Of a DNA stretch of 64,000 nucleotides, positions 31,262-49,000 are shown piece after piece. Source of the DNA: Parvibaculum sp. Lineage in GTDB: Bacteria > Pseudomonadota > Alphaproteobacteria > Parvibaculales > Parvibaculaceae. Position 1 is the stretch's first letter, and each line of letters starts with the position of its first letter. The notes under the pieces are model-generated. The model had not been told where the DNA came from. It was given only the letters and a program-made list of their open reading frames with translations, and did not search any database. The DNA is taken from assembly GCF_030651915.1 (NCBI RefSeq), contig NZ_JAUSBV010000010.1, forward strand, positions 62,001 through 126,000, read 5' to 3'. A program made the position numbers and the translations under genes.

Positions 31262-31333
31262 GGGGCCCCTGTTGGGGGCAGGACGGATATCGCGCTTGAA
31301 GCCAGGCCCGTTCTTGGGCATACACGGGGGACC

Positions 31334-31426: not shown

Positions 31427-31669
31427 ATCCGCAAGATAAGCATTTGATTTAGTTGATATTTTCTGTGGAAGGATTTCCGCGCTCCGGCGGCCTCGGGCGG
31501 GGGCAGGCGCCATGCGCCTCGGCGGTCCGGGTCCCAGACATCAATAAAATCAACCGGGCCGTTCCGGCGTTGCGCCGCTCCTTCGAGCGATGATTAACAG
31601 CTTGAAATTTTCCATTTTCTACCAGAGGTTGAGCGGATGTTCGACAGTTCGGCCGCAGGGGGGAAGTGC

Positions 31670-32131
31670 ATGAGCAGGGGGTTCAGTTCTCAATTACGAT
31701 TCGCGGTTGCGGTTTCGTCTCTGTTTCTGGGGCTTGGCATTGCGTCTGCGCATGCCGCGGACAAGGTTGTGATGATGCCGGTAGATTTGGCTCTTGCGAC
31801 GCCAGACGCCCAATCCGCTTTGAATGGCTCGGTTGCCTTCTACTTTGGTGATACAGGGCATCCGCAAGTCACACAGTCCTTTGGCGAAATTGTTTCGAAC
31901 AAGCGGACCAATGCCTTCGCCAAGTCCGACGAAGTGACATGCCAACGCGTGGCGCTCTCGAGATTCATTGGGCTTCAGGAGCGTGCAAATCAGTTGGGCG
32001 GCAACGCCGTCGTCAATATTCGCAGCTATTTTCGTTCGAACGAAGTAAAGAGTGACACGCACTACGAATGCCATATCGGCTTCCTGATGTCGGGTGTCAT
32101 GCTCAAGGGCGAAGTCAGTCAGGCTAGCTGA
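31670..32131 (+). CDS. exported protein, excinuclease-ATPase-subunit-like family (misnamed)
   Basis: A 153-residue protein with a signal peptide (LRFAVAVSSLFLGLGIASAHA). The mature part contains CQRVALSRFIGLQERANQLGGNAVVNIRSYF and a conserved-looking C-terminal cysteine (YECHIGF). Proteins of this kind are annotated 'excinuclease ATPase subunit', although they are small, exported and have no ATPase motif. The second ATG is used as start; the ATG at 31637 is also open. It shares the lower-GC look of the ape operon and could be its first gene, but its role is unknown. Confidence 0.65.
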   Translation: MSRGFSSQLRFAVAVSSLFLGLGIASAHAADKVVMMPVDLALATPDAQSALNGSVAFYFGDTGHPQVTQSFGEIVSNKRTNAFAKSDEVTCQRVALSRFIGLQERANQLGGNAVVNIRSYFRSNEVKSDTHYECHIGFLMSGVMLKGEVSQAS

Positions 32132-32173
32132 CTGAGAAGAGCCAGTATTTCACTGTATCAGGGAGGGCTGGCG

Positions 32174-32938
32174 ATGCAGATCGACCGCACGTTGTCCGTC
32201 CCGACCGGTCTCACGGCCGCGTATGTGGAGTCGTGGGCGGCGATATTGCTCCCGACAGATGATGCCCCCGCGCGGCGACTTGGCGATTGTGCGGAGGAGG
32301 CGGATATCCCCGTCAATCTGCGACGTCGCCTAAGGCCGTTGGCGCGTATGGGGGTTGCCTGTGGCCTTGGCGTGGCCCCGCAGAGCGATTCAGATATTGT
32401 CTTCTGTTCACGCTATGGCGATGTCGCCCTTGCTCATCAGCTTCTTACCTCGCTTCTCGAAGGGGAGCCCATGTCGCCAGCCGGCTTTTCCATGTCGGTC
32501 CACAATACTGTTCCCGGGGTGCTCGATCTTGCGCGCAAGGCACGGATCGGTCACACGGCTATAGCGGCGGGCACACAGACACTGTCGACGGGTCTTATGG
32601 AAGCATGGCTCCGCCTTGCCGAGCGGCCACATTTGAAGCTCGTGCTGATATTCGTGGATCTCCCTCTACCGGAGATTTACCGCGAGGTTGCCGATTGTGA
32701 CAGGGGCGGATTGGCATTTGGGCTCCGTCTTTCTGCTGAAGCAGGTGCACACGCTCACGTCTCCCTGATGCGCACCCAAGATACCGGGGAACACGGCGAC
32801 GTTCTCGACGCTCCCCATGCGGAACTGTTGGCCCGGGAAATCATTTCACGTTTGCGGGGCGATACTCTTGAGACGCTGCGTTGGCGTTCGCAAGGTTCTC
32901 TCTGGTCGTTCGAAGGGAACACCGATGCTGCGGCTTGA
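32174..32938 (+). CDS. apeC: aryl polyene ketosynthase chain-length factor (ApeC-like)
   Basis: A short ketosynthase-fold protein of 254 residues (family ketoacyl-synt_2). The nucleophile region reads AIAAGTQTLSTG, with no cysteine, so it should be a non-catalytic partner that sets chain length together with the ApeO ketosynthase. FSMSVHNTVPGVLDLA is the family signature. AGGGAGG lies seven bases before the ATG. It opens the tightly packed operon. Alternative: an independent chain-length factor of a flexirubin-type cluster. Confidence 0.85.
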   Translation: MQIDRTLSVPTGLTAAYVESWAAILLPTDDAPARRLGDCAEEADIPVNLRRRLRPLARMGVACGLGVAPQSDSDIVFCSRYGDVALAHQLLTSLLEGEPMSPAGFSMSVHNTVPGVLDLARKARIGHTAIAAGTQTLSTGLMEAWLRLAERPHLKLVLIFVDLPLPEIYREVADCDRGGLAFGLRLSAEAGAHAHVSLMRTQDTGEHGDVLDAPHAELLAREIISRLRGDTLETLRWRSQGSLWSFEGNTDAAA

Positions 32939-33701
32939 TTATATCTGGCGGCTATTTGGTACGGGTCTTTCCTTTTCCTTCTTTGGCATAGGAGGCCTCG
33001 TGCTTTCACTCACCGTGTTTCCAGTAATGAACCTGGTGGTGCGGGACCGTGAGGCGCGTGCTCAATATGCACAACGGTTCGTCCACACGATGTTTCGACT
33101 ACATCGCAATTTCATGATTGTGATGGGCGTAATCGAGTTTGAAACGCACAATGCCGAAGCGCTGGCGCAGGATACGGGTGTTCTCGTCGTCGCAAACCAC
33201 CCGACACTCCTTGATGTCGTTTTGCTGATGTCGATGATGCACCGGTCGCAATGCATCGTGAAAGCGGATATCTGGCGAAATCCCTTCATGCGCGGCGTTG
33301 TCACAGCGACGAATTACCTTCGCAACGACGGCGACCCCGAAACGCTGCTGGCGGATTGTGCTGCGGCGCTCGCCGGCGGCAACAACCTCATCGTGTTTCC
33401 GGAGGGGTCCCGTACGGTTCCCGGTGCGCCTGTGAAGCTGCAACGCGGGGTGGCCAATATCGCAATCAGGGCGGGTTCGCCCATTCGGCTCGTAACCATA
33501 AAATGCGAGCCACCGACCTTGATGAAAGGCCAGAAATGGTACCATATTCCGCCGCGCCGAATGCATTTCACAATCACGGTACACGGACTGGTTGAAACCC
33601 AGACATATATAGGTGAGTCTGTGCCGTCGATTGCCGCGCGGCGCCTAAACGAGTATTTGGCCGGCTGGTTGATGGGGGAAGTGGGCCATGGAGCGGCTTG
33701 A
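32925..33701 (+). CDS. apeD: 1-acylglycerol-3-phosphate-type acyltransferase (ApeD-like)
   Basis: A 258-residue LPLAT-family enzyme with an N-terminal membrane helix. The catalytic motif NHPTLLD (HxxxxD) and the substrate motif FPEGSR are intact. In aryl polyene systems such enzymes help attach the polyene or a companion acyl chain to the lipid anchor. It overlaps apeC by 14 bases and the next gene by 14, showing translational coupling. Confidence 0.87.
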   Translation: MLRLDYIWRLFGTGLSFSFFGIGGLVLSLTVFPVMNLVVRDREARAQYAQRFVHTMFRLHRNFMIVMGVIEFETHNAEALAQDTGVLVVANHPTLLDVVLLMSMMHRSQCIVKADIWRNPFMRGVVTATNYLRNDGDPETLLADCAAALAGGNNLIVFPEGSRTVPGAPVKLQRGVANIAIRAGSPIRLVTIKCEPPTLMKGQKWYHIPPRRMHFTITVHGLVETQTYIGESVPSIAARRLNEYLAGWLMGEVGHGAA

Positions 33702-33954
33702 AGATCAAATTCGGCGCCTGATCATTGAGACTCTGAATCTGGAGGATATTTCTGTGCAGGACATCGACGAGGATGAGCCTCTCTTTGGGGAGGGCCTCGG
33801 CCTCGATTCGATCGATGCACTTGAGATCGGCATCGAAATTCAGAAGGTGTTTGGCGTGAAGATCGACTCAAGCGATGAAAATCTAGCGAGTTACTTTTCA
33901 AGTGTGAGAGAACTGGCCCGATTTGTTGCTCGACAGCAGGGTCCCGCAACATGA
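33688..33954 (+). CDS. apeE: acyl carrier protein 1 (ApeE-like)
   Basis: An 88-residue acidic four-helix protein. The phosphopantetheine attachment serine lies in GLGLDSIDALEIG. One of two carrier proteins in the operon; one is expected to carry the aryl starter and the other the growing polyene, but which is which cannot be read here. It overlaps apeF by four bases. Confidence 0.92.
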   Translation: MERLEDQIRRLIIETLNLEDISVQDIDEDEPLFGEGLGLDSIDALEIGIEIQKVFGVKIDSSDENLASYFSSVRELARFVARQQGPAT

Positions 33955-34202
33955 ATCGAGATGAGATTTATGAAATGCTGAAGGGCTTTCTCGTGGAACT
34001 CTTCGAGATTCCGGAGGAGCGGATTTCGCTCGATGCCCATCTGGCGAACGACCTCGACCTCGACAGTATCGACGCCGTCGATCTGGTGCTGAAACTTCAG
34101 GAATTCGCCGGCCGCAAGGTCTCTGCGGAGCAATTTCGGTCGGTGCGGACGGTTCGCGATGTTATCGACCAGGTCCATGAGCTTCTCGACCAAGCGTCCT
34201 GA
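33951..34202 (+). CDS. apeF: acyl carrier protein 2 (ApeF-like)
   Basis: A carrier protein of 83 residues with the attachment serine in DLDLDSIDAVDLV. It differs clearly from the first carrier outside the motif, so the two are not recent duplicates. It overlaps apeG by 26 bases. Confidence 0.92.
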   Translation: MNRDEIYEMLKGFLVELFEIPEERISLDAHLANDLDLDSIDAVDLVLKLQEFAGRKVSAEQFRSVRTVRDVIDQVHELLDQAS

Positions 34203-34758
34203 TTCCTGGGACACAGCGGTTACGGTCGCAATGTTGCTGATCCCGATCGGGACAGCGATCGGTTTGCGCTGGATTGGCCCATGGCCAATTATCATTGCGC
34301 TTGTGGCCTGTATTGCTGCGCGCATCTTGTTGCCGCGGACCGCGCCTGTTCCGGTGGCGATGACACTTTGTCTCATTGCTGTTGTTGTTGCGGTTCTGGC
34401 TGTCGGTAGTTTCGCCCCAGACCTGGCGGCAATGCTTTACCCGGTTTTCATGAGTGCTGGTTTGTTCGTTGTCTTCACCGCCACACTCGTCAAGCCCCCC
34501 AGCATGGTTGAGCGTTTTGCCCGCATTGTCGAACCGGATCTTGATGAGCGCGGCGTTCGCTATACGCGCAAGGTGACAGAAGTCTGGATTGTTTTTTTTG
34601 CGTTCAATGGCCTTGTTGCGCTCTGGACCGTTCAACAGAACGACCTTTTTTATTGGGGCCTCTATAATGGCTTCATCAGCTATTTGATCGCGGGGCTTCT
34701 TTTTGTCGGTGAGTTCTTTGTGCGCCAACGCGTGCGTTCGCAGAGCGGGGCGCCATGA
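34177..34758 (+). CDS. apeG: COG4648 inner membrane protein (ApeG-like)
   Basis: A protein of 193 residues with about five or six hydrophobic helices, no enzyme motif, and a loop YTRKVTEVWIVFF FNG-like typical of COG4648. In aryl polyene clusters this protein is always near the carriers and ApeH. Function unknown, perhaps assembly at the membrane. The start at 34177 (MSFSTKRPDSWD) is preferred over 34159. Confidence 0.78.
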   Translation: MSFSTKRPDSWDTAVTVAMLLIPIGTAIGLRWIGPWPIIIALVACIAARILLPRTAPVPVAMTLCLIAVVVAVLAVGSFAPDLAAMLYPVFMSAGLFVVFTATLVKPPSMVERFARIVEPDLDERGVRYTRKVTEVWIVFFAFNGLVALWTVQQNDLFYWGLYNGFISYLIAGLLFVGEFFVRQRVRSQSGAP

Positions 34759-36410
34759 CCAAGGACTTGTGGCAGCGTCTCTCGACTGCACCGAACGACA
34801 CGCCTGTCGCCACGGATGGAACACGAAATGCGACAGCGGGTACCATTCGCGGCGCAGCCCTGTCGATGGCGGAGCGCCTGAGCGGGGACGATGGTCCGGT
34901 CTTTGTCTTTTGCGAAGACGCAGCGAACTTCGTCGTGGGACTTGCCGGCGCGTTGCTTGCGGGCCGCGACGTGTGTTTGCCGGGTCATGCCGCGCATGAG
35001 TATCTAAATGAGATCGGCGTCCATCCTGGCGCGTTCATCAGCGATCTTGAGGGGGTCAAGTCGATTTCGGTTTCCGCCTATGCGGGGCACCAGCAGGCCG
35101 AGGGTCTTCCGACTGTGCCGGAAGGCCGGATCGGCTTCTTTACATCCGGCTCTTCAGGGGAACCGAAGCGCTGCATGAAGGTGACAAGGCAGCTAGCGGC
35201 GGAGGTCGAGGCGCTGGGCCGTCTCTGGGGTGCGCCACGAGGCGTGGTCCTGGGAACGGTCTCGCATCAGCATATCTACGGCATTCTTTTCCGTGTGCTC
35301 TGGCCACTTGCAACGGGCGTGCGATTTTTTTCGCGACAGTACGAGACCTGGGAAGCTGTCGCCGGACATCTCGAACCGAACGGCGTCATCGTTTCGAGTC
35401 CCGCGCATTTGAGCCGTATCCCCAATGCGGTTCGCCTTCCGCATGTGCCGTCGGCTATTTTTTCCTCCGGTGGGCCGTTGTCGACCGATGCAGCGGCATT
35501 TGCTTCTGCGCAATTTGGTGTCACGCCGATAGAGGTTTTGGGTAGCACGGAAACCGGAGGAGTAGCGTGGCGGCAGCAGACGGGAAAATCCGTTCCATGG
35601 ACAGCCTTGCCCGGGGTCTCGGTTCGTGCCGACGAGGAGGGTGCTCTTGCCGTGCGTTCGCCGTTCACCGGACATGACGAGTTTCTGTCGATGGGAGACG
35701 CCGTCGCTATTTCGGAAGATGGCCGCTTTACGCTGGGTGGCCGTCTTGATCGCATTGTCAAAATAGAGGGCAAACGCGTTTCTCTGCAGCGTGTTGAAGA
35801 TGCGCTCAGGAATCTGCCCAACGTCGTAGATGTTGCCGTCATCGATCTGCCCGCCCGACAAGGTGCGCTCGGCGCTGCCGTCGTCGTGCATGAGAACGAT
35901 CAAACGCTGCTCGCCACAATGGGGCGTTTTCGCTACTCAAGGCACCTGCGTACCGCGCTTAAAGATCGACTTGAGCCGATGGAATTGCCCCGTTTCTGGC
36001 GTTTTGTGCAGCGGATTCATGAGAACGCGCAAGGCAAGCGCGTCGCTGCCGACATTCGCGCGCTCTTCAGATCAGCCGAACTGCCGCAGATCGATGCGAG
36101 TGACATCAGCGGAGGTCGCGCGCGCTTTGAGCTTCGGCTGCAACCCGAGTTGCGCTGGTTTGAGGGGCATTTTCCCGGCCAACCCATACTTCCGGGTGTC
36201 GCCCAGCTTCACATTGCGGCTTTGCTTGCCGAACGAACGTGGGGCAGCGCCTTCGACGGAAGGGAGATGTCCCGCGTTAAGTTTCGCCATGTCATGCAGC
36301 CGGATGAGCGGATATCACTTACGCTGGTCAAGAGTGGATCGCGTCTTGATTTCCAGTATAGCCGCGAGGGCGAGGTGGTTGCGAGCGGCACGCTCAGGGG
36401 CAGTTCGTGA
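34755..36410 (+). CDS. fused acyl-ACP ligase (ApeH) and dehydratase (ApeI)
   Basis: Residues 1 to about 440 form an adenylation domain: FFTSGSSGEPKR (P-loop), STETGG, GRLDRIVKIEGKR, and the catalytic lysine in NAQGKR. It should activate the aryl acid and load it on an ACP. From about residue 455 a hot-dog domain follows, with WFEGHFPGQPILPGVAQLH, the ApeI/FabZ-like dehydratase signature. In the well-studied clusters ApeH and ApeI are separate proteins, so this is a fusion. The frame is continuous with no internal start, and it overlaps both neighbours by four bases. Confidence 0.88.
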   Translation: MTKDLWQRLSTAPNDTPVATDGTRNATAGTIRGAALSMAERLSGDDGPVFVFCEDAANFVVGLAGALLAGRDVCLPGHAAHEYLNEIGVHPGAFISDLEGVKSISVSAYAGHQQAEGLPTVPEGRIGFFTSGSSGEPKRCMKVTRQLAAEVEALGRLWGAPRGVVLGTVSHQHIYGILFRVLWPLATGVRFFSRQYETWEAVAGHLEPNGVIVSSPAHLSRIPNAVRLPHVPSAIFSSGGPLSTDAAAFASAQFGVTPIEVLGSTETGGVAWRQQTGKSVPWTALPGVSVRADEEGALAVRSPFTGHDEFLSMGDAVAISEDGRFTLGGRLDRIVKIEGKRVSLQRVEDALRNLPNVVDVAVIDLPARQGALGAAVVVHENDQTLLATMGRFRYSRHLRTALKDRLEPMELPRFWRFVQRIHENAQGKRVAADIRALFRSAELPQIDASDISGGRARFELRLQPELRWFEGHFPGQPILPGVAQLHIAALLAERTWGSAFDGREMSRVKFRHVMQPDERISLTLVKSGSRLDFQYSREGEVVASGTLRGSS

Positions 36411-38116
36411 ACGCGGTAAAACCCTGTGTGGTTATCCCAACATATCATCACGTGAGCGTCCTAGATGGCATCGTCTCCGGTCTGCGCATGCAGGGATTGC
36501 CGGTCATCGTTGTCGATGATGGAAACGAACCAGACGATGCCCGTCGTATAGCGGGCATATGTGCCGCACACGACGGCGTGGAGCTGTTGAGGCGCCATTT
36601 CAATGGCGGCAAGGGTGCTGCAGTTCTGGATGGCATTGAGCGGGCTGAGGCGCGCGGCTTCACACATGCGTTGCAGATCGACGCCGATGGGCAACATGAT
36701 CTTGCGCGTGTCGCCGATCTGTTGCGTCTTGCCAGCGCATATCCGACAGCGCTCGTCGTTGGCGAACCCGTTTACGATGAGACGGTCCCGCGCAGCCGTC
36801 GTTTTGCTCGCTGGATTACCCACATATGGGTTTCGATCAACACCGCGTCCTTCCGGATAGTAGACAGCATGTGCGGTTTTCGCATCTATCCCATCGCGGC
36901 GACTCTGGCCATCTCGCGGTCGGTGTGTGTTGCCCAACGCATGGCCTTTGACACCGAAATACTTGTGAGGCTTGTCTGGCGTGGTGTTGATGTCGTTACA
37001 TTTCCGGTTCCCGTTACTTATCCGCCGGGAAATTATTCGAACTTCGCAATGTGGGACGACAATCTGCGACTGTCGGGTATGCATGCGAAGCTCTTCTTTC
37101 TGATGTTAATGCGTCTGCCGTTTCTTCTTTTCTCGCGCATCCGGGTACGCCGCCGATCATCGCGGCATTGGGCCGCGATCGGTGAGCGGGGCAGCTATGC
37201 GGGACTCTGGATTTTGGGCGCTATCTACAAGGTGCTCGGCCGTCGCGTTTGTCTCGTTGCTTTGGCACCGGTCGTGTTTTTCTTTTTCCTGACTGGAGGA
37301 GAGCAGCGCCGGGGTTCACTCTTGTATCTCAGGCGCGCTCATGAGATGGGTTTTGTGTCACGGGCGCCCGACTTGTTCTTGTCGTTTCGGCACTTCTTGA
37401 CCTTTGCTTCCTCGGCGATCGACAAACTTGCTGCATGGACGGGCAAGATTCCGGCATCGTCGGTATGTGGAGTCGATGAAGGTGAATTCGACCGAGCCAA
37501 GAAGCAGGGCCAAGGCGCGGTAATATTCACCGCGCATTTCGGCAACCCTGAAGTCCTGCGTGCAATCGCGACGCTTCGACTTCGTTGGCGCATCAATGTG
37601 CTGGTTCATACGGCTCACGCCGTTCACTTCAATCGGCTTGTCAATGAACTCTCGGAGTCTTCCACCGTCCGTGTCATTCAAGTTACAGAGGTCGGGCCAG
37701 ATACAGCGATCCTGCTTCAAGAGGCGGTGGCGAATGGTGACTGGGTCGTTATGGCCGGTGATCGAATACCGGTGACCGGAAATGAGCGGATCAGCTGGGT
37801 GCCATTCCTCGGCAAGCCCGCGCCTTTTCCGCAGGGGCCACATATTCTGGCCGGTCTTCTCAAGTGCCCGGTTCATCTTCTCTTCTGTTTACGCGAGGGG
37901 GCGCATCACCGCATCTATTTCGAGCGCTTCGCGGAGAGGGTCGAGTTGCCGCGGAAAGGCAGGAATGAAGCGATCTCCGCCTCAGTGGCGCGATATGCCG
38001 AGCGTCTCGAAAGTCATTTGCGTATTGCGCCTTTGCAATGGTTCAATTTTTTCGACTTCTGGCATCCTGGGGGGCTCAAGCCGCCAGAACCAGCCGGGCA
38101 GTTAGAGGGGCAGTGA
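36407..38116 (+). CDS. apeJ: glycosyltransferase-acyltransferase fusion (ApeJ-like)
   Basis: Domain 1 (residues 1 to about 230) is a family 2 glycosyltransferase: VVIPTYHH, NGGKGAAVLDG and the DxD in QIDADGQHD. Domain 2 (about 280-560) resembles LpxL-type lipid acyltransferases, with TAHFGNPEVLRA (HxxxxE) and GDRIPV. Between them lies a basic, hydrophobic linker. The pair probably builds the sugar-lipid to which the polyene is attached. Length and order agree with ApeJ. Confidence 0.88.
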   Translation: MNAVKPCVVIPTYHHVSVLDGIVSGLRMQGLPVIVVDDGNEPDDARRIAGICAAHDGVELLRRHFNGGKGAAVLDGIERAEARGFTHALQIDADGQHDLARVADLLRLASAYPTALVVGEPVYDETVPRSRRFARWITHIWVSINTASFRIVDSMCGFRIYPIAATLAISRSVCVAQRMAFDTEILVRLVWRGVDVVTFPVPVTYPPGNYSNFAMWDDNLRLSGMHAKLFFLMLMRLPFLLFSRIRVRRRSSRHWAAIGERGSYAGLWILGAIYKVLGRRVCLVALAPVVFFFFLTGGEQRRGSLLYLRRAHEMGFVSRAPDLFLSFRHFLTFASSAIDKLAAWTGKIPASSVCGVDEGEFDRAKKQGQGAVIFTAHFGNPEVLRAIATLRLRWRINVLVHTAHAVHFNRLVNELSESSTVRVIQVTEVGPDTAILLQEAVANGDWVVMAGDRIPVTGNERISWVPFLGKPAPFPQGPHILAGLLKCPVHLLFCLREGAHHRIYFERFAERVELPRKGRNEAISASVARYAERLESHLRIAPLQWFNFFDFWHPGGLKPPEPAGQLEGQ

Positions 38117-38118
38117 AG

Positions 38119-39693
38119 GTGGACGTGGTGATGGACGACGTTACAGGCGAAGTCGTCTTTGGTGGGGCGCGTCTCACGATCGGCGGCATCGCGTCAATTT
38201 CAACGCGCGCTGTTTCCGTGCGCTTGGATGATAGCGCCGCGTTTCGCGACAGAATTTCCCGTTCGGCCGTCCATGTTGATGAAACGTTGCGTCGTGACGG
38301 GATGATCTACGGTGTCACGACGGGTTTTGGCGACTCTTGCACAACACCGATTGCGGACGATCTCGTTGCGGAGCTGCCGTTGCATCTTACTCGGTTTCAC
38401 GGCGTCGGCCTGGGCCGTTTTCTAACGGCGGAGGAAACGCGCGCCGTCATGGCCGTGCGTCTCGCATCGCTGGTTCAGGGCTGGTCCGGCGTCAGCCTGG
38501 GGCTGGTCGAACTGCTGACCGAAATGTTGAAATGCGACATTTTGCCGATGATTCCGGCTGAAGGGTCGGTCGGCGCCAGTGGCGATCTAACGCCATTGAG
38601 TTACATAGCCGGTGCGCTTGCCGGTGAACGTATGGTCCGCTTCGGCGACCGCGAAATGATGGCGGCCGATGCCTTCCGGGAAGCGGGGCTTACGCCGATC
38701 ACACTGCGCCCGAAAGAGGCCCTGGCGGTGATGAACGGCACCGCGGTCATGTCTGGCCTCGGTGCTATTGTGTTTACGCGAGCGGCTTACCTTTCCCGCC
38801 TTTCAACACGCCTGACTTCGCTAGCCTGCATGTCACTGATGGGCAATCCGGCCCATTTCGATGGACGACTCCACTTGGCTAAACCACATCCCGGTCAGAT
38901 GCTTGTCGCGGCGCGTATCCGCGAAGACCTTGCCGCGTTCGCCATGCATCATGAGCCATCGCGCTTGCAGGACCGGTACTCAATCCGTTGCGCACCACAT
39001 GTCGTCGGTGTGCTCGAAGACGTGCTTCCCGGATTTCGCGAAATGCTCGAAATCGAGATCAATAGCGCCAATGATAACCCGTTGGTTGACCCTGATAGCG
39101 GGGCCATACTGCATGGCGGCCACTTCTATGGAGGCCATGTCGCTTTCGTGATGGACAGTCTGAAGAATCTTGTGGCGAATATCGCCGATCTGATGGATCG
39201 GCAGATGGCGCTGCTGGTCGATACGCGTTTCAGCAACGGACTTCCAGCCAATCTTTCGGGTGTAACAGGGCCGCGCGCGGCCATCAATCATGGGCTGAAG
39301 GCATTGCAGATTGCCACCTCCGCATGGACCGCCGAGGCACTGAAGCTCACCATGCCGGCCAGTGTCTTTTCCCGTTCCACGGAATGTCATAACCAGGACA
39401 AGGTCTCGATGGGTACTATCGCGGCTCGTGACGCGCTGCGTGTTCTGGAACTCACCGAGCAGGTTGCGGCTGCACATTCCGTTGCGTGTATCCAGGCGCT
39501 GCGCTTGCGTATCCGGAGCGGGGAGGTTTCGGCTGGCGATCTTGCAGGTCCACTTTCCGTTTTTGCCAATACACTGCAATCGGTCATTCCGTTCATCGAG
39601 GAGGACCGCCCAATCGACCATTTACTGAGCAATCTCTGTGCAGGCATTGGCCGGCAGGCATGGATGATCGACTGGGCGGAGGCAGACCGGTGA
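38119..39693 (+). CDS. MIO-type aromatic amino acid ammonia lyase (HAL/PAL/TAL family)
   Basis: A 524-residue enzyme with the prosthetic-group motif GSVGASGDLTPLSY (Ala-Ser-Gly cyclises to MIO), an early loop YGVTTGFG with the catalytic tyrosine, and EINSANDNPL and FSRSTECHNQDKVSMG near the active site. It removes ammonia from a histidine, phenylalanine or tyrosine. The selectivity pair in the segment LTRFHGVGLG reads Phe-His by eye, not His-Leu (tyrosine), Phe-Leu (phenylalanine) or Ser-His (histidine). Position in the operon suggests it makes an aryl acrylate starter. Start GTG at 38119 has AGAGGGG eight bases upstream. Confidence 0.88.
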   Translation: MDVVMDDVTGEVVFGGARLTIGGIASISTRAVSVRLDDSAAFRDRISRSAVHVDETLRRDGMIYGVTTGFGDSCTTPIADDLVAELPLHLTRFHGVGLGRFLTAEETRAVMAVRLASLVQGWSGVSLGLVELLTEMLKCDILPMIPAEGSVGASGDLTPLSYIAGALAGERMVRFGDREMMAADAFREAGLTPITLRPKEALAVMNGTAVMSGLGAIVFTRAAYLSRLSTRLTSLACMSLMGNPAHFDGRLHLAKPHPGQMLVAARIREDLAAFAMHHEPSRLQDRYSIRCAPHVVGVLEDVLPGFREMLEIEINSANDNPLVDPDSGAILHGGHFYGGHVAFVMDSLKNLVANIADLMDRQMALLVDTRFSNGLPANLSGVTGPRAAINHGLKALQIATSAWTAEALKLTMPASVFSRSTECHNQDKVSMGTIAARDALRVLELTEQVAAAHSVACIQALRLRIRSGEVSAGDLAGPLSVFANTLQSVIPFIEEDRPIDHLLSNLCAGIGRQAWMIDWAEADR

Positions 39694-40678: not shown

Positions 40679-42909
40679 GTCTTGCGCGATGGCCAGCCGT
40701 TCTGATCGGTCTCGGCTTCGCCGCTGCACTAATTCTCTCCGCATTACGAATACCGGACGCGATCGACACCGATATTATGTCGCTTCTTCCGGGGGATGCA
40801 CACGATCCTGTTCTTGCAGCGGCAGTTGTCCGCGCGAGTGAGGTGGCCTCGAACAGGGTTGTCTTCGTCATAGAAGGGGCAACGCCCGGGGAGCGCCGTA
40901 TCGCGATTGACGCATTGTCCGCTTCCCTCACGGATACTGGCCATTTCAATGCGGCCGACGTCGATGGCGAGGCGCTTTGGAAGTGGCTGTTTTTCCATCG
41001 CGCGAGGCTTTTGTGCCCTGACGATCGCGCTCTTCTCGAGGCGAGTGGGGGCAGTGCAATCGTCGACCACGCGTTACGCCAATGGTATGCGCCGTCGATG
41101 GTCGGTATGGGAGGGCTGCTGAAGAGCGATCCCTTTCTTCTCACCAATCGCCTGATAGACTGCCTGGCACCAGGTGTCTTTGTGGGCGATGTGCCAGCGG
41201 CGGAAATGCTATCTGGAAGTATCTCCGCATCGGTTTTTCGTCTCGACGTTCAGGATGACATCGCCGCGGCAGTTGCGAGCTGGCGAATGGAGTGGGAGCC
41301 GAAAGGGCTTGTGCTCTTGCGGGGTGGTGCAATTTTTCACGCCACTCATGGCGCGATGCAGGCGCGGTCGGAGGTTTCGCTAATTGGCGGTATCACGCTT
41401 GCGGCCATTTTCCTTTTATACTGGCTGACGTTTCGCACTCTTCGTGCGCCTGTTCTCGCGATCATCATGGTGGCCTACGCGCTTGCGACGGGTCTAGCTG
41501 TAACTCTGCTCGTCTTCAGCAATGTGCATGTCATGGCGCTTGTATTTGGTGCGGCGCTGATTGGCATGGTGGTCGACTATACGACCTACTATCTCGTGAC
41601 CGGAATTGGCGATGCACCAACGAGCCAGGTACAGCGAAGGGCGCATCTCTTCAAGCCGCTAACGCTCGGCATGTTGACTTCGGTCGGTGCGTTTGCGGCG
41701 CTGCTTGTCTTTCCTGTTCCGGCGTTTCGGCAGATGGCCGTCTTTGGTATGTCGGGCCTTGTTGCCGCTTGGCTCGCCACGTTCTGGGTTATTCCGCTCA
41801 TCGAAGGTGGCCGTATGGCGACGGGGCCGGGTGCGGCGTGGATTTCCCGCCGCGCAGGATACTATCTGGCGCGGACACCGGCGCCGCTGTGGCGGGGACT
41901 CGTCATCTTTCTCGCACTTCTTATGTTGGCAGTTGGCTGGCGCTCCGGTGGAATTCTCGATGATGTACGCGGGATGCAAGCACCGTCGCAAACCTTGGGT
42001 ATGGAAGAGGCGCGTCTTCGCGAGCTTTCCGGCTTTGAAGCGTCGAGTGCCTTCATTCTGGTTCGCGGAGATTCCGCTGCCGATGCCATTCGTGGTGAGG
42101 AGATGCTGCTTGCGCTGCTTCCCCCCGAAGATACACAGGCGATCATTTTTGCAGCGAGCCGTCTGGACCCTTCGGCTGGTACCAAGGCGCGCGACGCCGA
42201 GCTTCTTGAGACACGTCTTATTGCACCTTTCCTGCCGAAGCTTATGGCGGAACTTAGCTCGAACGGTTCGAATGCCTATGAGGCTGGTGACGTCGGTCAG
42301 ATAAATCTTCCAGCTCTTGTCGCTTCGCTGCGGGGGGAGGTGTCCGGGGTCCACTGGTCCCTCATGCCGGTGACGCGCACAGTCACGTTGCCGTCGATCG
42401 GTGCGGGGGCTTGGCAGTTTGTGGATCCGGCCGACCTCTATTCCGCTCTTTTTGGGGAGTACCGGCGGCTTGCCACATTTGGCGTCGCCGCCGCCTGCTT
42501 CATGACAGGTCTCATGCTGCTGGGAATCTATCGCGAGTTTTCGGCACTCAGGGTCCTGCTGCCGGCCCTTCTCGCCGTCGTTATAACGCCTACCATTGTC
42601 ATGATGCTCGGCCTGCCATTTTCATTCTTCTCCGCCATGGGCCTGTTTCTGGTGCTCGGCGCAGGGGTCGATTACGCAATATTTCAACGGGAACACCCGG
42701 GCGAGATTGGTAAATGGACACGGGTCGGCATTGTTCTGGCAGCTCTCATGACTTGTATTTCACTGGGGCTTCTCAGTCTAAGTTCGGTCTTGCCCGTCAG
42801 GAGTTTCGGGGTCACCGTAGCGGTCGGCATTTTTGTGTCGTTGGCGCTTTCGCCTTTCGCAAGGGGGCGTCGGGCCGACATTTCGAGTGGGGACGAAATT
42901 GAATCCTGA
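40675..42909 (+). CDS. apeM: MMPL/RND-type exporter (ApeM-like)
   Basis: A 744-residue inner membrane transporter with about 12 helices and two large periplasmic loops. The helical segments with GMVVDYTTYYL and GAGVDYAIFQ are the paired proton-relay motifs of MMPL proteins. It should pass the aryl polyene lipid from the inner membrane to ApeL. Start GTG overlaps the ApeL stop. Confidence 0.9.
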   Translation: MSLARWPAVLIGLGFAAALILSALRIPDAIDTDIMSLLPGDAHDPVLAAAVVRASEVASNRVVFVIEGATPGERRIAIDALSASLTDTGHFNAADVDGEALWKWLFFHRARLLCPDDRALLEASGGSAIVDHALRQWYAPSMVGMGGLLKSDPFLLTNRLIDCLAPGVFVGDVPAAEMLSGSISASVFRLDVQDDIAAAVASWRMEWEPKGLVLLRGGAIFHATHGAMQARSEVSLIGGITLAAIFLLYWLTFRTLRAPVLAIIMVAYALATGLAVTLLVFSNVHVMALVFGAALIGMVVDYTTYYLVTGIGDAPTSQVQRRAHLFKPLTLGMLTSVGAFAALLVFPVPAFRQMAVFGMSGLVAAWLATFWVIPLIEGGRMATGPGAAWISRRAGYYLARTPAPLWRGLVIFLALLMLAVGWRSGGILDDVRGMQAPSQTLGMEEARLRELSGFEASSAFILVRGDSAADAIRGEEMLLALLPPEDTQAIIFAASRLDPSAGTKARDAELLETRLIAPFLPKLMAELSSNGSNAYEAGDVGQINLPALVASLRGEVSGVHWSLMPVTRTVTLPSIGAGAWQFVDPADLYSALFGEYRRLATFGVAAACFMTGLMLLGIYREFSALRVLLPALLAVVITPTIVMMLGLPFSFFSAMGLFLVLGAGVDYAIFQREHPGEIGKWTRVGIVLAALMTCISLGLLSLSSVLPVRSFGVTVAVGIFVSLALSPFARGRRADISSGDEIES

Positions 42910-44119
42910 CGTGGTCATTATTGGTGCCGGGCCGGCAGGGTCGGTCGCGGCAGCAATGCTTGTCGATGCGGGCTTTTCGGTTGAGGTGTTGGAGCGGGTG
43001 CATTTTCCCCGTTTTTCCATCGGCGAAAGCCTGCTGCCGCAGGCGATGGAGTGGCTCGCCGAAGCCGATCTCTTGCGTGACGTCGTTGAAGCCGGATTTC
43101 AGCACAAAAATGGGGCCATCTTTCGGTGCGGCGATAAAGAGGAGTGTTTTGACTTCCGCACGAAGAGCGCCAATGGTTGGGGCACGACCTTTCAAGTCCG
43201 TCGTGACAAGTTTGATGATCTGCTTGCGCGCGGCGCAGTGCGCAAGGGCGCGAAGGTGAGCTTTGGACAGACCGTTGTTGCGATGCAGCCAGATCCGGTC
43301 ATGCCGCGCCTTACCGTACGTGATGAAGCCGGAGCCGAGCGCGACATCACGGCGCGCTTTGTTCTCGATGCAAGCGGTTTTGGACGTGTTCTCGCACGGC
43401 TACTCGATCTCGAGACGCCGACAAGCTTTCCGAATCGAATGTCGATCTTCACCCATGTCGAAGACAACATCCCGGTGCGAGCATATGACCGCAACAAGAT
43501 TCTGATTACCGTCAATCCGCTCAACAACGAAATTTGGTATTGGCTCATTCCGCTGGCGGACGGGCTTTGTTCCATGGGTGTGGTCGGAAAGCCCGAGCAC
43601 CTCCTGCCTTATGGATCCACACGCGAGGAACAACTTTCGGCGCTGGTCGCGGAATCCGGCCTTATGTCGGAACTTCTTGTCAACGCGAAGCGGGTGCGCG
43701 ATGTAGGCGAAATTTCCGGATATGCGTGCCGCGTCAGTAGCCTTACAGGAGACGGCTATGCGTTGCTTGGAAATGCCGGGGAATTTCTTGATCCGGTTTT
43801 CTCATCGGGGGTTACCATCGCGCTTAAATCTGCGTCTCTGGCCACCCACACGCTGATAAAGCAATTGAATGGAGAAGCGCCGGATTGGGACGTTGAGTTT
43901 TCTCGACCGCTCTGTCGCGGCGTCGAGGTCTTCCGCGCCTATGTGAGCGGCTGGTACGATGGCTCTCTGCAGAAGATCATTTTCAGTGGGCGAACGGATG
44001 CGAACCAGGTCAAGGGGATGATTACGTCGGTTTTGGCGGGATATGCCTGGGACGAGAAAAATCCGTTCGTTCGCGAGCCCGACAAGTATCTCGGGATGGT
44101 TAAGTCGCTATGCGGTTAA
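42899..44119 (+). CDS. flavin-dependent halogenase-like oxidoreductase
   Basis: This 406-residue protein has the FAD motif VVIIGAGPAGSVAA, then FPRFSIGESLLPQAM, and the segment EIWYWLIPL, which fits the WxWxIP motif of flavin halogenases. HKNGAIF fits the phenolic halogenase pattern KxGAxF that contains the catalytic lysine. Placed inside the ape operon, it may add halogen or hydroxyl to the aryl head. The start is taken as TTG at 42899, which overlaps apeM by 11 bases, with GTGGGGA before it. A plain FAD hydroxylase or a geranylgeranyl-reductase-like enzyme cannot be excluded. Confidence 0.78.
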   Translation: MNPDVVIIGAGPAGSVAAAMLVDAGFSVEVLERVHFPRFSIGESLLPQAMEWLAEADLLRDVVEAGFQHKNGAIFRCGDKEECFDFRTKSANGWGTTFQVRRDKFDDLLARGAVRKGAKVSFGQTVVAMQPDPVMPRLTVRDEAGAERDITARFVLDASGFGRVLARLLDLETPTSFPNRMSIFTHVEDNIPVRAYDRNKILITVNPLNNEIWYWLIPLADGLCSMGVVGKPEHLLPYGSTREEQLSALVAESGLMSELLVNAKRVRDVGEISGYACRVSSLTGDGYALLGNAGEFLDPVFSSGVTIALKSASLATHTLIKQLNGEAPDWDVEFSRPLCRGVEVFRAYVSGWYDGSLQKIIFSGRTDANQVKGMITSVLAGYAWDEKNPFVREPDKYLGMVKSLCG

Positions 44120-44676
44120 TTTGTGTCATCCTTCCTGCTCTGCTTTTTGTTGCGGGGTGTGCGTCCGGCGTTTCACCTTTGCCCACTCGTCTGGAGATAG
44201 CCCCTGGCGTTTCGTTCACTTTGCCTGTGCGACCGCCGTTTGGTGCCGATGCGAATGCGGTTCAACTTGTGCGCAGCAGCTTTGGTCGCCGGAACGACCG
44301 CTTCCAAACCATCGTCGAAGTAACGTCATCGCGATTCGCATTGGCAATGGCAGTGCCGTCCGGCCCTCATATCGTGACGATAGAGTGGCATGAAGGCGCC
44401 ATTGTCGTCAGGCGCGGCATTGCGCCGGAAAGTCTACCGATGCAGCGCCTCCTCGTCGATTTCATGCTCGTCTATGCCTCGGACGAGGCAGTACGCGAGG
44501 CGCTTGTGGGCGCCCATTTCGTCAGCTCCGGAAGTGGTGCACGTCGAATTTTTCGAAATGGCAACCTGCTTGTCGAAGTGGTTCGTCCGGAGGCGAATCC
44601 GTGGGAGGGTTCATCAAGACTTCGCAACCATGTCCATGGCTACGAGCTTGTCATCGACAGTCACACGGTAAAGTAA
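44110..44676 (+). CDS. apeN: DUF3261 lipoprotein (ApeN-like)
   Basis: A lipoprotein of 188 residues: signal peptide with lipobox FVAGC, then a beta-rich domain typical of DUF3261, including IVRRG-like and IDSHT-like strands. It probably accepts the pigment at the outer membrane as a LolB-like partner of ApeL. It overlaps the flavin enzyme by ten bases. Confidence 0.83.
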   Translation: MRLICVILPALLFVAGCASGVSPLPTRLEIAPGVSFTLPVRPPFGADANAVQLVRSSFGRRNDRFQTIVEVTSSRFALAMAVPSGPHIVTIEWHEGAIVVRRGIAPESLPMQRLLVDFMLVYASDEAVREALVGAHFVSSGSGARRIFRNGNLLVEVVRPEANPWEGSSRLRNHVHGYELVIDSHTVK

Positions 44677-44678
44677 GA

Positions 44679-45854
44679 ATGACCGGACGGAGCGTTTATA
44701 TCGTGGCATCGTCCGTTGCCAATGCTCTTGGTGCGGACTGGGACACTGTTTCAGGCGCACTTTTCAGCGGCGATCTATCGGGGCTTCAGCAGACCGAAAA
44801 AATAGCGGATGGCCGGACGCCGCCTGTCGGGCGACTGCGTTTTGCGCTTGCTGAGTTGCCGTTGGCTTTTGAGGAGTGGGAGAGTCGCAATAACCGTCTT
44901 GTTTATCATTGTCTTGAGCCCCTAATGCCGATTATCGCAGAGGCGATCTCGAAGTTCGGCCCGGCGCGCGTCGGCGTCGTTGTCGGAACGAGTACGTCGG
45001 GAATTGAGGGCTGGGAATTGGCGCTTGGAAAGCGCTTCTCCGCCAATGGTTGGCCAAATTATTTTCGGCTTGCGCGAACCGAACTTGGCGATCCCGCTGC
45101 ATTCGTAGAGGCCGTTACGGGAACAGCAGGTCCCTGTTATGGCGTGTCGACGGCCTGCACGTCCGGCGGCAAGGCAATCGTGGCCGCGGTACGGCTCATA
45201 CAGGCCGACCTGTGTGATGTCGTCGTGACGGGCGGCATTGATACACTGTGCAGCCTGACGCTGAATGGGTTTTCCGTCCTGGATTCGATCTCCTCTGCGC
45301 GGTGTAATCCGTTCAGCATCAACCGGGATGGAATAAATATTGGTGACGGTGGTGCACTGTTCGTCCTGGGGCGAGAGGAAGCGCATACCAGAATAGCGGG
45401 TTGGGGCGAAAGTTCTGATGCGCATCATCTGAGCGCACCCGACCCAGAAGGCTACGGCGCCGAGCTCGCCATCGAACAGGCGCTTCTTCACTCGGGGATT
45501 TCTCCGTCGGACATTGCCTATCTCAATCTTCACGGTACAGCGACCCGACTTAATGACGCGATGGAAGCTAAGGTGACGCACCGGCTTTTCGGCGGCGATC
45601 TTCCGTGCAGTTCCACCAAGGCGCTGACGGGCCATATGCTGGGCGCGGCAGGTTCCTGCGAAGCGGCCTTCGTCTCTATGGCGCTGGCGCGACGCGAGGT
45701 ACCACCACATCTCTGGGATGGAGATGTTGATCCGAAGCTTCCACCGCTTCATCTCGTCGATCGCATTGGCGAGCGCGTCGAGGGACGGTATATGATGAGT
45801 TGTTCCTATGCCTTCGGCGGGAACAATCTGGCCTTGATTCTGGCTCGCGAATGA
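44679..45854 (+). CDS. apeO: aryl polyene ketosynthase (ApeO-like)
   Basis: A 391-residue condensing enzyme with the full triad: cysteine in VSTACTSGGKA, histidine in NLHGTATRLND and histidine in LTGHMLGAAG. In the known system ApeO with ApeC elongates the polyene from malonyl-ACP. The catalytic residues are complete, so it is active where ApeC is not. The start at 44679 follows apeN by two bases. Confidence 0.92.
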   Translation: MTGRSVYIVASSVANALGADWDTVSGALFSGDLSGLQQTEKIADGRTPPVGRLRFALAELPLAFEEWESRNNRLVYHCLEPLMPIIAEAISKFGPARVGVVVGTSTSGIEGWELALGKRFSANGWPNYFRLARTELGDPAAFVEAVTGTAGPCYGVSTACTSGGKAIVAAVRLIQADLCDVVVTGGIDTLCSLTLNGFSVLDSISSARCNPFSINRDGINIGDGGALFVLGREEAHTRIAGWGESSDAHHLSAPDPEGYGAELAIEQALLHSGISPSDIAYLNLHGTATRLNDAMEAKVTHRLFGGDLPCSSTKALTGHMLGAAGSCEAAFVSMALARREVPPHLWDGDVDPKLPPLHLVDRIGERVEGRYMMSCSYAFGGNNLALILARE

Positions 45855-46312
45855 TGACCGATCCCCTCCCATATATCGGAGAGCTCGTCCGGCACAGCGG
45901 CACCATGCTGCTGATCGACAGATTGATCGAGGCATCGGATTTTCATGCCGTTGCGGAAGTGTCGATTACCGAGAATTCGACGTTCTTTCGTGATGGATGC
46001 GGCGTTCCTGCATATGTCGGCCTTGAGTATCTTGCGCAGACCATTGCGGCGTATGACGGCGCCAGCCGCCACGCCAGCGGTGAGCCACCGGAGATCGGCT
46101 TCCTTCTTGGGACACGACGATACATGGCGACGCGCGGATATTTTGCCGTAGGCGAGACACTGCATATCCGTGTCGACATGACCTTTAATGAAAACGGCAT
46201 GGCGGCGTTTGATGGCGTCATTCGCATAGACGACGACGACTGTGTTATTGCGTCTATAAACGTCTATCGACCCGAAGGGCGCGCTGCGGGGTTGCGGCAG
46301 GATATGTCATGA
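45851..46312 (+). CDS. apeP: ApeP-type 3-hydroxyacyl-ACP dehydratase
   Basis: A 153-residue hot-dog protein of the FabA/ApeP branch, with YIGELVRHSGTMLLIDRL, EYLAQTIAAYDG and GFLLGTRRY. In the model system it pairs with ApeI to remove water and leave the conjugated double bonds. Here ApeI is a fused domain, so the pair would form between this protein and the C-terminus of the ligase fusion. It overlaps apeO by four bases. Confidence 0.9.
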   Translation: MMTDPLPYIGELVRHSGTMLLIDRLIEASDFHAVAEVSITENSTFFRDGCGVPAYVGLEYLAQTIAAYDGASRHASGEPPEIGFLLGTRRYMATRGYFAVGETLHIRVDMTFNENGMAAFDGVIRIDDDDCVIASINVYRPEGRAAGLRQDMS

Positions 46313-47046
46313 ACGATACAGCGAAGCGGACCATTCTCGTTACCGGAGCGAGCAAGGGGATCGGGCGGGCGATAGCCATTCGAGTCGCGCGGGACGGATT
46401 TCCGGTCACAATCCATTTCGGTTCTGATGAGGCAGGTGCGGATGATACGCGTCGCTTGATCGAGGAAGCAGGCGGAACGGCACGCGTTCTCGGATTCGAC
46501 GTCTCGAGCCGTGATGCGTCTCTTGCCGCGCTTGAATCCGACATCGCGGCGCATGGCGCCTATTGGGGTATCGTTCTCAACGCTGGAATAGCGCGGGACA
46601 ATGCCTTTCCGGCGATTTCAAGAGAAGATTGGGACAGTGTGATCGACACCAATCTTGGCGGTTTCTTCAATGTTGTTCATCCGCTTGTGATGCCCATGAT
46701 CCGCCGTCGCGATGGAGGCCGCATTGTTACCATTTCGTCCGTCTCCGGTATAATCGGCAACCGTGGTCAGGTAAACTACAGTGCGGCGAAGGCCGGCATT
46801 ATCGGCGCCACCAAGGCGCTGGCGGTTGAGCTCGCGACGAGAAGGATCACAGTCAATTGCGTTGCACCCGGCGTGATAGAAACCGCGATGATCAAAGAAG
46901 CGCCCGTCGAGGAAATTGTCAGAATGATTCCGATGCAGCGTCTGGGAAAGCCTGAGGAGATATCCGGCATCGTCGCCTTTATTCTCTCTGATGAGGCCAG
47001 TTATATGACACGTCAGGTCATATCGGTGAATGGGGGAATGTGTTGA
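46309..47046 (+). CDS. apeQ: 3-ketoacyl-ACP reductase (ApeQ-like, FabG family)
   Basis: A 245-residue short-chain reductase: TGASKGIGRAIA for NADPH binding, LNAGIARDNAF, the catalytic serine in SSVSGIIG and YxxxK in NYSAAKAG. It reduces the keto group of the growing chain. It overlaps apeP by four bases and the next gene by one. Confidence 0.94.
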   Translation: MNDTAKRTILVTGASKGIGRAIAIRVARDGFPVTIHFGSDEAGADDTRRLIEEAGGTARVLGFDVSSRDASLAALESDIAAHGAYWGIVLNAGIARDNAFPAISREDWDSVIDTNLGGFFNVVHPLVMPMIRRRDGGRIVTISSVSGIIGNRGQVNYSAAKAGIIGATKALAVELATRRITVNCVAPGVIETAMIKEAPVEEIVRMIPMQRLGKPEEISGIVAFILSDEASYMTRQVISVNGGMC

Positions 47047-48272
47047 TGCGGCGCGTCGTTGTAACAGGTATGGCTGGAGTAACACCGCTTGGTGCGGACT
47101 GGAGCGATATTCGTGCCGCGATGGGAGAGGGGCGTACGGGCGTCAGATATATCGAAGCTTGGGACAGGCTTGGCGATTTGAGAACGCGGCTTGGTGCGCC
47201 AGCGACATATTTTGAGCATGAGAAGATTTTCCCACGCAAAAAGATGCGCTCCATGGGGCGGGTTGCGATACTTGCTGTGCGTTCGGCGGAGCGAGCGCTT
47301 GCGGCTGCGGGTCTTACAGATGATCCTGTCCTCACATCCGGCCGTGCCGGTGTCGCCTTCGGGTCGTCTTACGGTTCTACCGAGTCTACCAAAGGTTTTG
47401 TCCATTTCATGGATTCGGGAGAGGCGACAGGCCTCAGCGCGATGAGCTACATTAAAATGATGAGCCATACGGCTGCCATTAATATTGGTATCTTCTTCGG
47501 GCTACAGGGACGCATCATCACGACGTCGTCGGCATGCACGTCGGGTTCGCAAGCGATCGGATATTCCTGTGAGGCCATTCGATATGGACACGCCGACGTA
47601 ATGATCGCAGGTGGCGCGGAAGAATTGTGTCCTACCATGGCCATCGTTTTCGACACCCTTTTTGCGACCAGCTGTCGCAACGATGCACCTCATACCGCGC
47701 CGTGCCCCTATGACCGAGACCGCGATGGCCTCGTGATTGGCGAGGGCGCTGCCGCACTCATTCTCGAAGAGCGTGAGCATGCGTTGGCGCGTGGAGCAAC
47801 CATCTATGCCGAGATTGTAGGTTTTGGCACGAACATGGACGGTTCGCATGTCACCGACCCAAAATCCGAAACCATGGCGCGAGCCTTGCAGCTTGCGCTT
47901 GATGATTCGGGTTTGTCTGCGGACACTATTGCGTTCGTCAGCGGGCATGGAACAGCGACGCTTCAGGGCGATGTCGCAGAGACGATTGCTACGGCCAGTG
48001 TCCTCAGATCCTCTACCCCAATCCATTCGCTGAAGGGCTATTTCGGTCACACACTCGGTGCGTGCGGTGCCATTGAAGCATGGCTTGCTATTGAAATGAT
48101 GCGCGATGGACATTTCGCTCCAAACATCAATCTCCGCAACGTTGACGAAAATTGTGGCGAGCTCGACTATATCGTTGATGGTTTTCGTCAGATCGATGCT
48201 GAATTCGTAATGTCCAACAATTTCGCTTTTGGCGGAGTCAACACCTCATTGATCTTCAAGCATTATGCTTGA
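47046..48272 (+). CDS. apeR: aryl polyene ketosynthase (ApeR-like)
   Basis: A ketosynthase of 408 residues with cysteine in TSSACTSGSQA and histidines in SGHGTATLQGD and KGYFGHTLGA, so it is catalytically complete. In the studied cluster ApeR is a homodimer that performs the first condensation. It is the last gene of the operon; the start is ATG at 47046 (TGATG overlap). Confidence 0.92.
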   Translation: MRRVVVTGMAGVTPLGADWSDIRAAMGEGRTGVRYIEAWDRLGDLRTRLGAPATYFEHEKIFPRKKMRSMGRVAILAVRSAERALAAAGLTDDPVLTSGRAGVAFGSSYGSTESTKGFVHFMDSGEATGLSAMSYIKMMSHTAAINIGIFFGLQGRIITTSSACTSGSQAIGYSCEAIRYGHADVMIAGGAEELCPTMAIVFDTLFATSCRNDAPHTAPCPYDRDRDGLVIGEGAAALILEEREHALARGATIYAEIVGFGTNMDGSHVTDPKSETMARALQLALDDSGLSADTIAFVSGHGTATLQGDVAETIATASVLRSSTPIHSLKGYFGHTLGACGAIEAWLAIEMMRDGHFAPNINLRNVDENCGELDYIVDGFRQIDAEFVMSNNFAFGGVNTSLIFKHYA

Positions 48273-48356
48273 TAGGCTTCAGAAGATGTGTGCTGCCGGT
48301 TTCACGGCCGACAACCGGCGAATCTACGGAACGATGCTTTTCAGTTTCTCGCATTG

Positions 48357-48998: not shown

Positions 48999-49000
48999 CG

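Follow-up and report, generated by a model that had tools for sequence, protein, structure and literature searches.

An aryl polyene operon with ammonia lyase and halogenase-type flavoprotein genes at a tRNA-Ser site of Parvibaculum sp.

Gene content and layout of the operon

We analyzed a 64,000-nucleotide stretch of DNA from Parvibaculum sp. (assembly GCF_030651915.1, contig NZ_JAUSBV010000010.1, positions 62,001–126,000; hereafter the window), in which 18 open reading frames (ORFs) follow one another on the plus strand from position 31637 to 48272. With plausible starts picked among the candidate starts, 15 of the 17 junctions overlap; 42 bases separate the first gene from the second, and 2 bases lie before apeO. 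Searches against NCBIfam and Pfam ordered the genes as apeC-D-E-F-G-HI-J-lyase-K-L-M-flavoprotein-N-O-P-Q-R. The ape genes thus stand as in the Escherichia coli operon (c1202 to c1186) listed in Table 1 of PMC8253772. Both the run of 18 overlapping same-strand genes and the apeC-to-apeR order of the gammaproteobacterial pathway, which an earlier note had drawn from the sequence alone, are therefore borne out. Judged by its gene content, this is a complete operon for an aryl polyene (APE) lipid, a yellow pigment, of a subtype that carries an ammonia lyase and a halogenase-type flavoprotein.

The APE assignment is supported by the full apeC–apeR set in reference order on one strand, with apeH and apeI fused, and by the two dehydratases, which score above the cut-offs of their families (37.2 bits against 28.5 for the ApeI-like PF22818 and 50.7 against 27 for the ApeP-like PF22817). 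Domains of ketosynthase/chain length factors, lysophospholipid acyltransferases, two acyl carrier proteins (ACPs), a LolA-like carrier, an HpnN-like transporter, DUF3261 and FabG2 are spread over the operon. Matches of apeD, apeK, apeL, apeM and the lyase subfamily fall below curated cut-offs, as does the best NCBIfam match of apeHI, a 4-coumarate--CoA ligase (112 bits, cut-off 335). The family searches returned nothing for apeG or the first gene (31637); apeG was assigned from its position and from tblastn matches to the clusters of loci L020–L022. As the earlier note had stated, the 18 genes include neither an ApeB-type methyltransferase nor a chorismate lyase. We considered the flanking methyltransferase genes (50925 and 51652) as ApeB candidates and rejected them as glycine/sarcosine and sarcosine/dimethylglycine enzymes.

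Features of the operon block (coordinates refer to the window)
Feature	Coordinates	Strand	Basis
tRNA-Ser(GCT), left border of the operon block	31334..31426	+	ARAGORN
Small exported protein, conserved beside aryl polyene genes	31637..32131	+	tblastn, structure model
apeC, ketosynthase-like chain length factor	32174..32938	+	PF13723
apeD, lysophospholipid acyltransferase	32925..33701	+	family match below cut-offs
apeE, ACP	33688..33954	+	NF006617, over cut-off
apeF, ACP	33951..34202	+	NF003757, over cut-off
apeG, membrane protein	34177..34758	+	position, tblastn to L020–L022
apeH-apeI fusion, AMP ligase and ApeI dehydratase	34755..36410	+	PF00501, PF22818
apeJ, glycosyltransferase (GT2)-lipid A-type acyltransferase fusion	36407..38116	+	PF00535, PF03279
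Aromatic amino acid ammonia lyase, MIO-type, predicted tyrosine ammonia lyase	38113..39693	+	PF00221, selectivity pair, MIO motif, tree
apeK, hotdog thioesterase	39690..40109	+	family match below cut-offs
apeL, LolA-like periplasmic carrier	40058 (or 40097)..40678	+	NF053544 (LolA2_flexi) and PF19574, both below cut-off
apeM, RND/MMPL-type exporter	40675..42909	+	HpnN-type match, E 2.8e-8, below cut-off
FAD-dependent halogenase-type flavoprotein	42887 (likely start)..44119	+	Trp_halogenase, motifs, fold search
apeN, DUF3261 lipoprotein	44110..44676	+	PF11659
apeO, ketosynthase	44679..45854	+	NF006618, over cut-off
apeP, dehydratase	45851..46312	+	PF22817
apeQ, ketoreductase FabG2	46309..47046	+	TIGR01831, over cut-off
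apeR, ketosynthase	47040 (or 47043, 47046)..48272	+	NF006587, over cut-off

The ammonia lyase and the flavoprotein

The earlier note had treated the lyase between apeJ and apeK and the flavoprotein between apeM and apeN as insertions that interrupt the series. The positions hold, whereas the view of them as unusual does not. In a scan of named genomes that took the best 80 of 577 flavoprotein relatives as loci, both genes occupy the window's positions in 34 of the 80, five of them Parvibaculum and others including Shewanella, Stenotrophomonas and Corallococcus; the nearest to the window among these best 80 are metagenome-assembled genomes of Parvibaculum, an alphaproteobacterial genus. The lyase is present in at least 38 of the 80 loci, a lower bound since the 10-kb flank truncates many loci of Burkholderiales; J and K flank it in 36 and the other two loci end before J. 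Records of Pseudoalteromonas sp. THAF3 and Acinetobacter baumannii VB31459 also have the two genes at the same two places, and Burkholderia multivorans has the lyase in place and the flavoprotein at the far end of the cluster. Among the 46 loci with J, K, M and O all matched, 11 have the flavoprotein without the lyase. In ten aryl polyene loci that have the flavoprotein and lack the lyase (L048, L049, L052, L056, L057, L064, L065, L066, L084 and L094), J and K match by tblastn at a distance of 33–161 bases from each other, so the lyase is either cleanly present or cleanly absent between the two. Separately, the A. baumannii locus L021 (CP035931.1) is labelled a 1.02-Mb plasmid but looks like chromosomal sequence, because genes for histidine--tRNA ligase, bamB, der and an isoprenoid synthase adjoin the operon.

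We also took a census of 397 sampled Pseudomonadota genomes. We set the cut-offs for the flavoprotein (1e-60) and ApeO (1e-70) beforehand and chose that for the lyase (at least 569 bits) after a score gap, the next matches reaching at most 260 bits. The lyase clade was found in 44 genomes, the flavoprotein in 52 and an ApeO-type synthase in 83, and all 44 lyase genomes carry the synthase. Both genes occur in 39 of the 83 ApeO genomes, the lyase only in 5, the flavoprotein only in 12 and neither in 27 (odds ratio 17.6, Fisher p 7e-8, relatedness ignored). Within Parvibaculum, the lyase is present in 11 of 25 genomes and the flavoprotein (at least 71% identity) in 12 of 27, namely the same 11 plus G042, which lay outside the first draw of 25; several of these genomes are incomplete, which makes the absences partly uncertain. 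By these gene patterns, both genes are a standard feature of a common aryl polyene subtype rather than insertions. The window's operon is an ordinary member of that subtype, and what had been read as odd additions are its markers.

To place the two proteins, we compared them with a 33.9-kb cluster in genome G688, taken from the family of genome G327; of the loci compared, G327 has the lyase closest to the THAF3 enzyme. The cluster comprises, from its head, a lyase, an ACP, an AMP ligase, a ketosynthase, three large ORFs resembling non-ribosomal peptide synthetases (NRPSs), two of them with condensation motifs, and a flavoprotein at its end. We take it to be alterochromide-like from its architecture; the described alterochromide (alt) cluster spans about 34 kb (PMC5577590). 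Its lyase is 39% identical to that of the window and its flavoprotein 43%, with the same motifs. For the alt system, the same source describes the formation of coumaric acid from tyrosine by AltA, the rescue of an altA deletion by coumaric acid and the loss of brominated products upon deletion of altN, which makes AltN necessary for bromination (PMC5577590). With this link, the starter and the halogenation are no longer mere guesses but can each be tested on one gene.

The flavoprotein matches the Pfam Trp_halogenase family at 73.7 bits, over the cut-off of 21. The top NCBIfam model for both the window and the alt flavoprotein is the halogenase CmlS, although the window protein scores 151 bits against an equivalog cut-off of 900. 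Flavin-dependent halogenases are marked by a conserved lysine and the motifs WxWxIP and FxDPxxSxG. The lysine (K72) and the motifs WxWxIP (WYWLIP in the window) and FxDPxFSxG (FLDPVFSSG) are invariant in all 14 rows aligned, the alt protein included. Among solved structures, the nearest by sequence is 3nix from Cytophaga hutchinsonii (333 bits), followed by halogenases at 143 bits or less. A fold search with the structure model (predicted local distance difference test, pLDDT, 90.5) also returned 3nix as the best match, at template-modelling (TM) scores of 0.93–0.94. By E-value, ranks 7–40 among the best 50 rows were halogenases (ChlB4, PltA, Mpy16, RadH, Bmp2, FasV, CmlS, CndH, CtcP and PltM; TMq 0.71–0.90), and hydroxylases appeared from rank 41 on (TMq 0.63–0.73). 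Halogenase genes have precedents in the pathway, being reported for clusters of Xanthomonas and other bacteria (PMC3691225), for Azoarcus as arcA (PMC3949708) and, as a probable halogenase, for Acetobacteraceae (PMC8776678).

The motifs, the fold search and the alt link are consistent with halogenation of the phenol ring, which we somewhat favor as a prediction and regard as the weakest step of our reading. Several observations weigh against it, and some of these would also suit a flavoprotein that is instead a ring hydroxylase or other oxidase, giving, for example, a catechol head. The title of 3nix names only a flavoprotein/dehydrogenase, with no assigned activity. The alt flavoprotein scores higher with 3nix (412 bits) than with the protein of the window (338 bits), so that halogenation would be carried over from a cousin. 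In a tree of 77 of 102 rows (94 after identical and short rows were dropped, then near-copies removed), the alt protein stands apart on a long branch, which makes a confident halogenase assignment harder. The weaker matches to halogenases have TM-scores (0.71–0.76) that overlap those of 4-hydroxybenzoate hydroxylase (0.72–0.73), and there is no flavin reductase among the 18 genes. Furthermore, the 12 ApeO genomes with the flavoprotein alone are joined by one that carries it without ApeO. Given the invariant halogenase motifs, the precedence of halogenases over hydroxylases in the fold search and the CmlS match, below cut-off as it is, the oxidase alternative appears rather unlikely, though it is the strongest of those we weighed.

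The lyase belongs to the aromatic amino acid lyases (PF00221, E 2e-151). It has the 4-methylideneimidazole-5-one (MIO) motif GSVGASGDL at residue 151, with the Ala-Ser-Gly triad expected of a tyrosine ammonia lyase (TAL), and the usual conserved stretches. It probably makes a coumarate starter. The subfamily models are less clear and count against a simple TAL assignment: the best, BagA/FevW TAL, reaches 407 of the 1000 bits of its cut-off, close to a hutH-type model at 383, and FlxA reaches 304 of 700. The Acinetobacter lyase even scores marginally higher with the hutH-type model (395.7) than with the TAL model (394.0). The alt lyase also falls below both TAL cut-offs (387 for BagA/FevW, 344 for FlxA); since alterochromide lyase is reported to make coumaric acid, the window enzyme may still work as a TAL. 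The identification of the G688 cluster as alt from architecture alone tempers this argument.

Residues at the selectivity site differ among these enzymes: tyrosine ammonia lyases have H-L, phenylalanine ammonia lyases (PALs) F-L and histidine ammonia lyases S-H. Ungapped profile alignment with Anabaena PAL and pairwise alignments with HutH place the pair of the window lyase at F95-H96, an alignment-based assignment and one that departs from the H-L of TALs. The placing depends on the alignment: gapped alignments to plant PALs (phmmer and profile) put H91-L92 at the site, which would be the usual tyrosine pair. We kept F95-H96 since the alt lyase, too, can be aligned at this place with no gap. 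Across 95 rows at this place (98 rows with at least 300 residues aligned, duplicate fetches included, less three unalignable fragments), 71 have F-H, 19 Y-H and 5 S-H; the S-H rows are HutH-type and the alt row has Y-H. In a tree of 82 of the 98 rows, from which identical and short rows were dropped, the aryl polyene and alt rows split from the five HutH rows at 100/100, the alt row on a long branch, and the window lyase falls in a group of alphaproteobacterial rows. A hut-pathway histidine ammonia lyase was rejected on the score gap of the census, the residue pair and the tree, in line with the 370 of 539 bits for TIGR01225.

A lyase acting on phenylalanine or histidine, and thus yielding a phenyl or imidazolyl head, would fit the unusual F-H pair obtained by alignment with Anabaena PAL and HutH, and the scores under the TAL cut-offs so close to the hutH-type model. 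We consider it improbable: the enzyme groups with the alt lyase, for which coumaric acid is the reported product (PMC5577590), its clade is confined to ApeO-carrying genomes in our census, and a halogenase-type partner would need a phenol.

The earlier note had argued from the missing chorismate lyase that the head group is built by another route. As put, this is weak: a chorismate lyase is also missing from Table 1 of the E. coli operon, for which UbiC, an enzyme of the ubiquinone pathway, is the predicted source of 4-hydroxybenzoic acid (4-HBA) (PMC8253772). The argument gains strength from the genus: not one of the 27 Parvibaculum genomes, among them 19 with a completeness of at least 90% and a contamination of at most 5%, gave a UbiC match, although other chorismate enzymes, of the XanB2 type, were not searched for. 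Among 14 control genomes, the search matched E. coli alone. Thus, the E. coli supply of 4-HBA seems unavailable in Parvibaculum. A 4-HBA-primed pigment with the lyase in a side role, as might be argued from the 4-HBA activation by the reference ApeH (PMC8253772) and from the 39 of 83 ApeO genomes without a lyase of this clade, is still less probable in view of the UbiC result, the 4-base overlaps of the lyase gene with each neighbor and the AltA precedent (PMC5577590).

The tRNA-Ser site

The operon begins 210 bases past a tRNA-Ser(GCT) gene in a genome of 3.5 Mb. In the operon-free genome of a relative, G001, sequence matching window positions 30276–31426 (part of tesB plus the tRNA, 87% identity) is followed by 60 bases and then by a match to 48367–62165 (83%). 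This empty site, which joins 31426 to 48367, identifies 31427–48366 as a discrete block of about 16.9 kb. The G+C content of the operon, 57.3%, is lower than that of the DNA on its left (64.1%) and on its right (59.9%). In genomes G014 and G024 the operon lies beside tRNA-Ser(CGA) instead. At the GCT site, G014, G002 and G019 carry other DNA of about 3.2, 2.6 and 6.3 kb, respectively, and the G019 match resumes only at window position 49737. In the genome from which the window comes, the match to the CGA-tRNA region and the match to the DNA just after the G014 operon lie about 10.3 kb apart. Neither NCBIfam nor Pfam gave an integrase match for any of the 18 genes. A search for att-type repeats found no exact direct repeat of 9 bases or more between 31380–31470 and 48200–48420, and the 26 bases at the end of the tRNA do not recur in the window when up to 3 mismatches are allowed. 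The operon was likely gained or lost by recombination at variable tRNA sites, and the block with its empty site suggests how a pigment operon comes and goes inside one genus.

The first gene of the block (31637) is outside the apeC–apeR series and is a conserved exported neighbor. Relatives gave tblastn matches in 58 loci, 47 of which were extracted as ORFs, some genes being in the set more than once, and two cysteines are invariant in 23 rows of the family. The protein has no Pfam match; its structure model (pLDDT 88.5) gave weak Foldseek matches to DUF74/YbjQ-type proteins and to Francisella FvfA (best E 1.3e-3). The THAF3 and Acinetobacter records label relatives as excinuclease, which looks wrong. 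Where found in the Pseudoalteromonas, Acinetobacter, Shewanella, Stenotrophomonas, Marinobacter and Corallococcus clusters, the gene lies downstream.

Beyond the block, the genes at 48288–49642 were rejected as operon members, for they stand directly beside the tRNA in the operon-free G001. Genes for glycine/sarcosine and sarcosine/dimethylglycine N-methyltransferases lie side by side at 50925–52563, a pair that suggests glycine betaine synthesis from glycine. Matches to it were also found in G001, G002 and G019, which do not have the operon's lyase.

Proposed pathway and comparison with known systems

Our best reading of the product is a coumarate-primed, probably ring-halogenated, unmethylated aryl polyene lipid; we give the APE class together with the coumarate starter a probability of about 0.7. 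The lyase would convert tyrosine to 4-coumarate and ammonia, and the ligase half of ApeHI, by homology to ApeH, would load 4-coumarate on ApeE or ApeF. ApeR would start the chain, ApeO and ApeC extend it with malonyl-ACP, ApeQ reduce and ApeI and ApeP dehydrate, yielding a 4-hydroxyphenyl polyene; these roles follow the E. coli and X. doucetiae work described in PMC8253772. The flavoprotein may then halogenate the phenol ring. ApeK, ApeD and ApeJ would release the acid and attach it to a lipid, and ApeG, ApeL, ApeM and ApeN would export the lipid to the outer membrane. Nothing in the operon leads us to expect methylation of the ring. The product proposed in the earlier note thus stands as to an aryl-acrylate starter, a halogenase fold and the missing ApeB, while halogenation is plausible only, as a prediction.

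The new elements here are the relation to the alt genes, the lack of UbiC, the conservation of [F/Y]-H at its place and the block beside tRNA-Ser. We found no product of this subtype in the open-access literature, a search mostly at title and abstract level that leaves most subscription papers outside. Tentatively, and at somewhat less than even odds, the subtype could be a large, chemically undescribed subclass, in about half of the sampled ApeO-type Pseudomonadota genomes, with tyrosine-derived, ring-halogenated phenol heads made via an [F/Y]-H lyase and, in Parvibaculum, carried on a 17-kb block moving between tRNA-Ser genes.

The reference APE_Ec cluster of E. coli CFT073 (c1204–c1186) shares with the window the apeC–apeR order in one direction and the overlaps between genes. 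Both also have two ACPs, three genes of ketosynthase type, two dehydratases, and genes for lipid attachment and Lol-like export. It differs in having an ApeB methyltransferase and separate ApeH and ApeI, in the absence of an ammonia lyase or flavoprotein from its Table 1 and in its predicted 4-HBA starter from UbiC (PMC8253772). In Xanthomonas, a XanB2-type chorismatase supplies hydroxybenzoate. Such a chorismatase also supplies it for arcuflavin in Azoarcus (PMC3949708). Xanthomonadin and arcuflavin are likewise products of aryl polyene type II polyketide synthases with the halogenase genes cited above, and neither PMC3949708 nor PMC3691225 contains the word ammonia. Flexirubin clusters, represented by NCBIfam models, resemble the window in an ammonia lyase, a short-chain dehydrogenase/reductase and LolA relatives, yet the matches are all below cut-off (FlxA as given above, FlxB 271 of 340 bits, LolA2_flexi 37 of 125).

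Alterochromide (altA–altN, Pseudoalteromonas), compared via G688, is alike in a lyase on the same side of the tree, in the flavoprotein motifs and in its aryl polyene acyl chain (PMC7551054). Its product is an NRPS lipopeptide (PMC5577590), and the synthase genes of G688 are only 27–34% identical to those of the window, with no match to apeL, apeM or apeN in 60 kb. The clusters of THAF3, VB31459, Shewanella, Stenotrophomonas, Marinobacter and Corallococcus differ from the window in sequence (about 21–67% identity by gene) and, in THAF3, in split ApeH/I and ApeJ, but they share its arrangement J-lyase-K-L-M-flavoprotein-(N)-O-P-Q-R.

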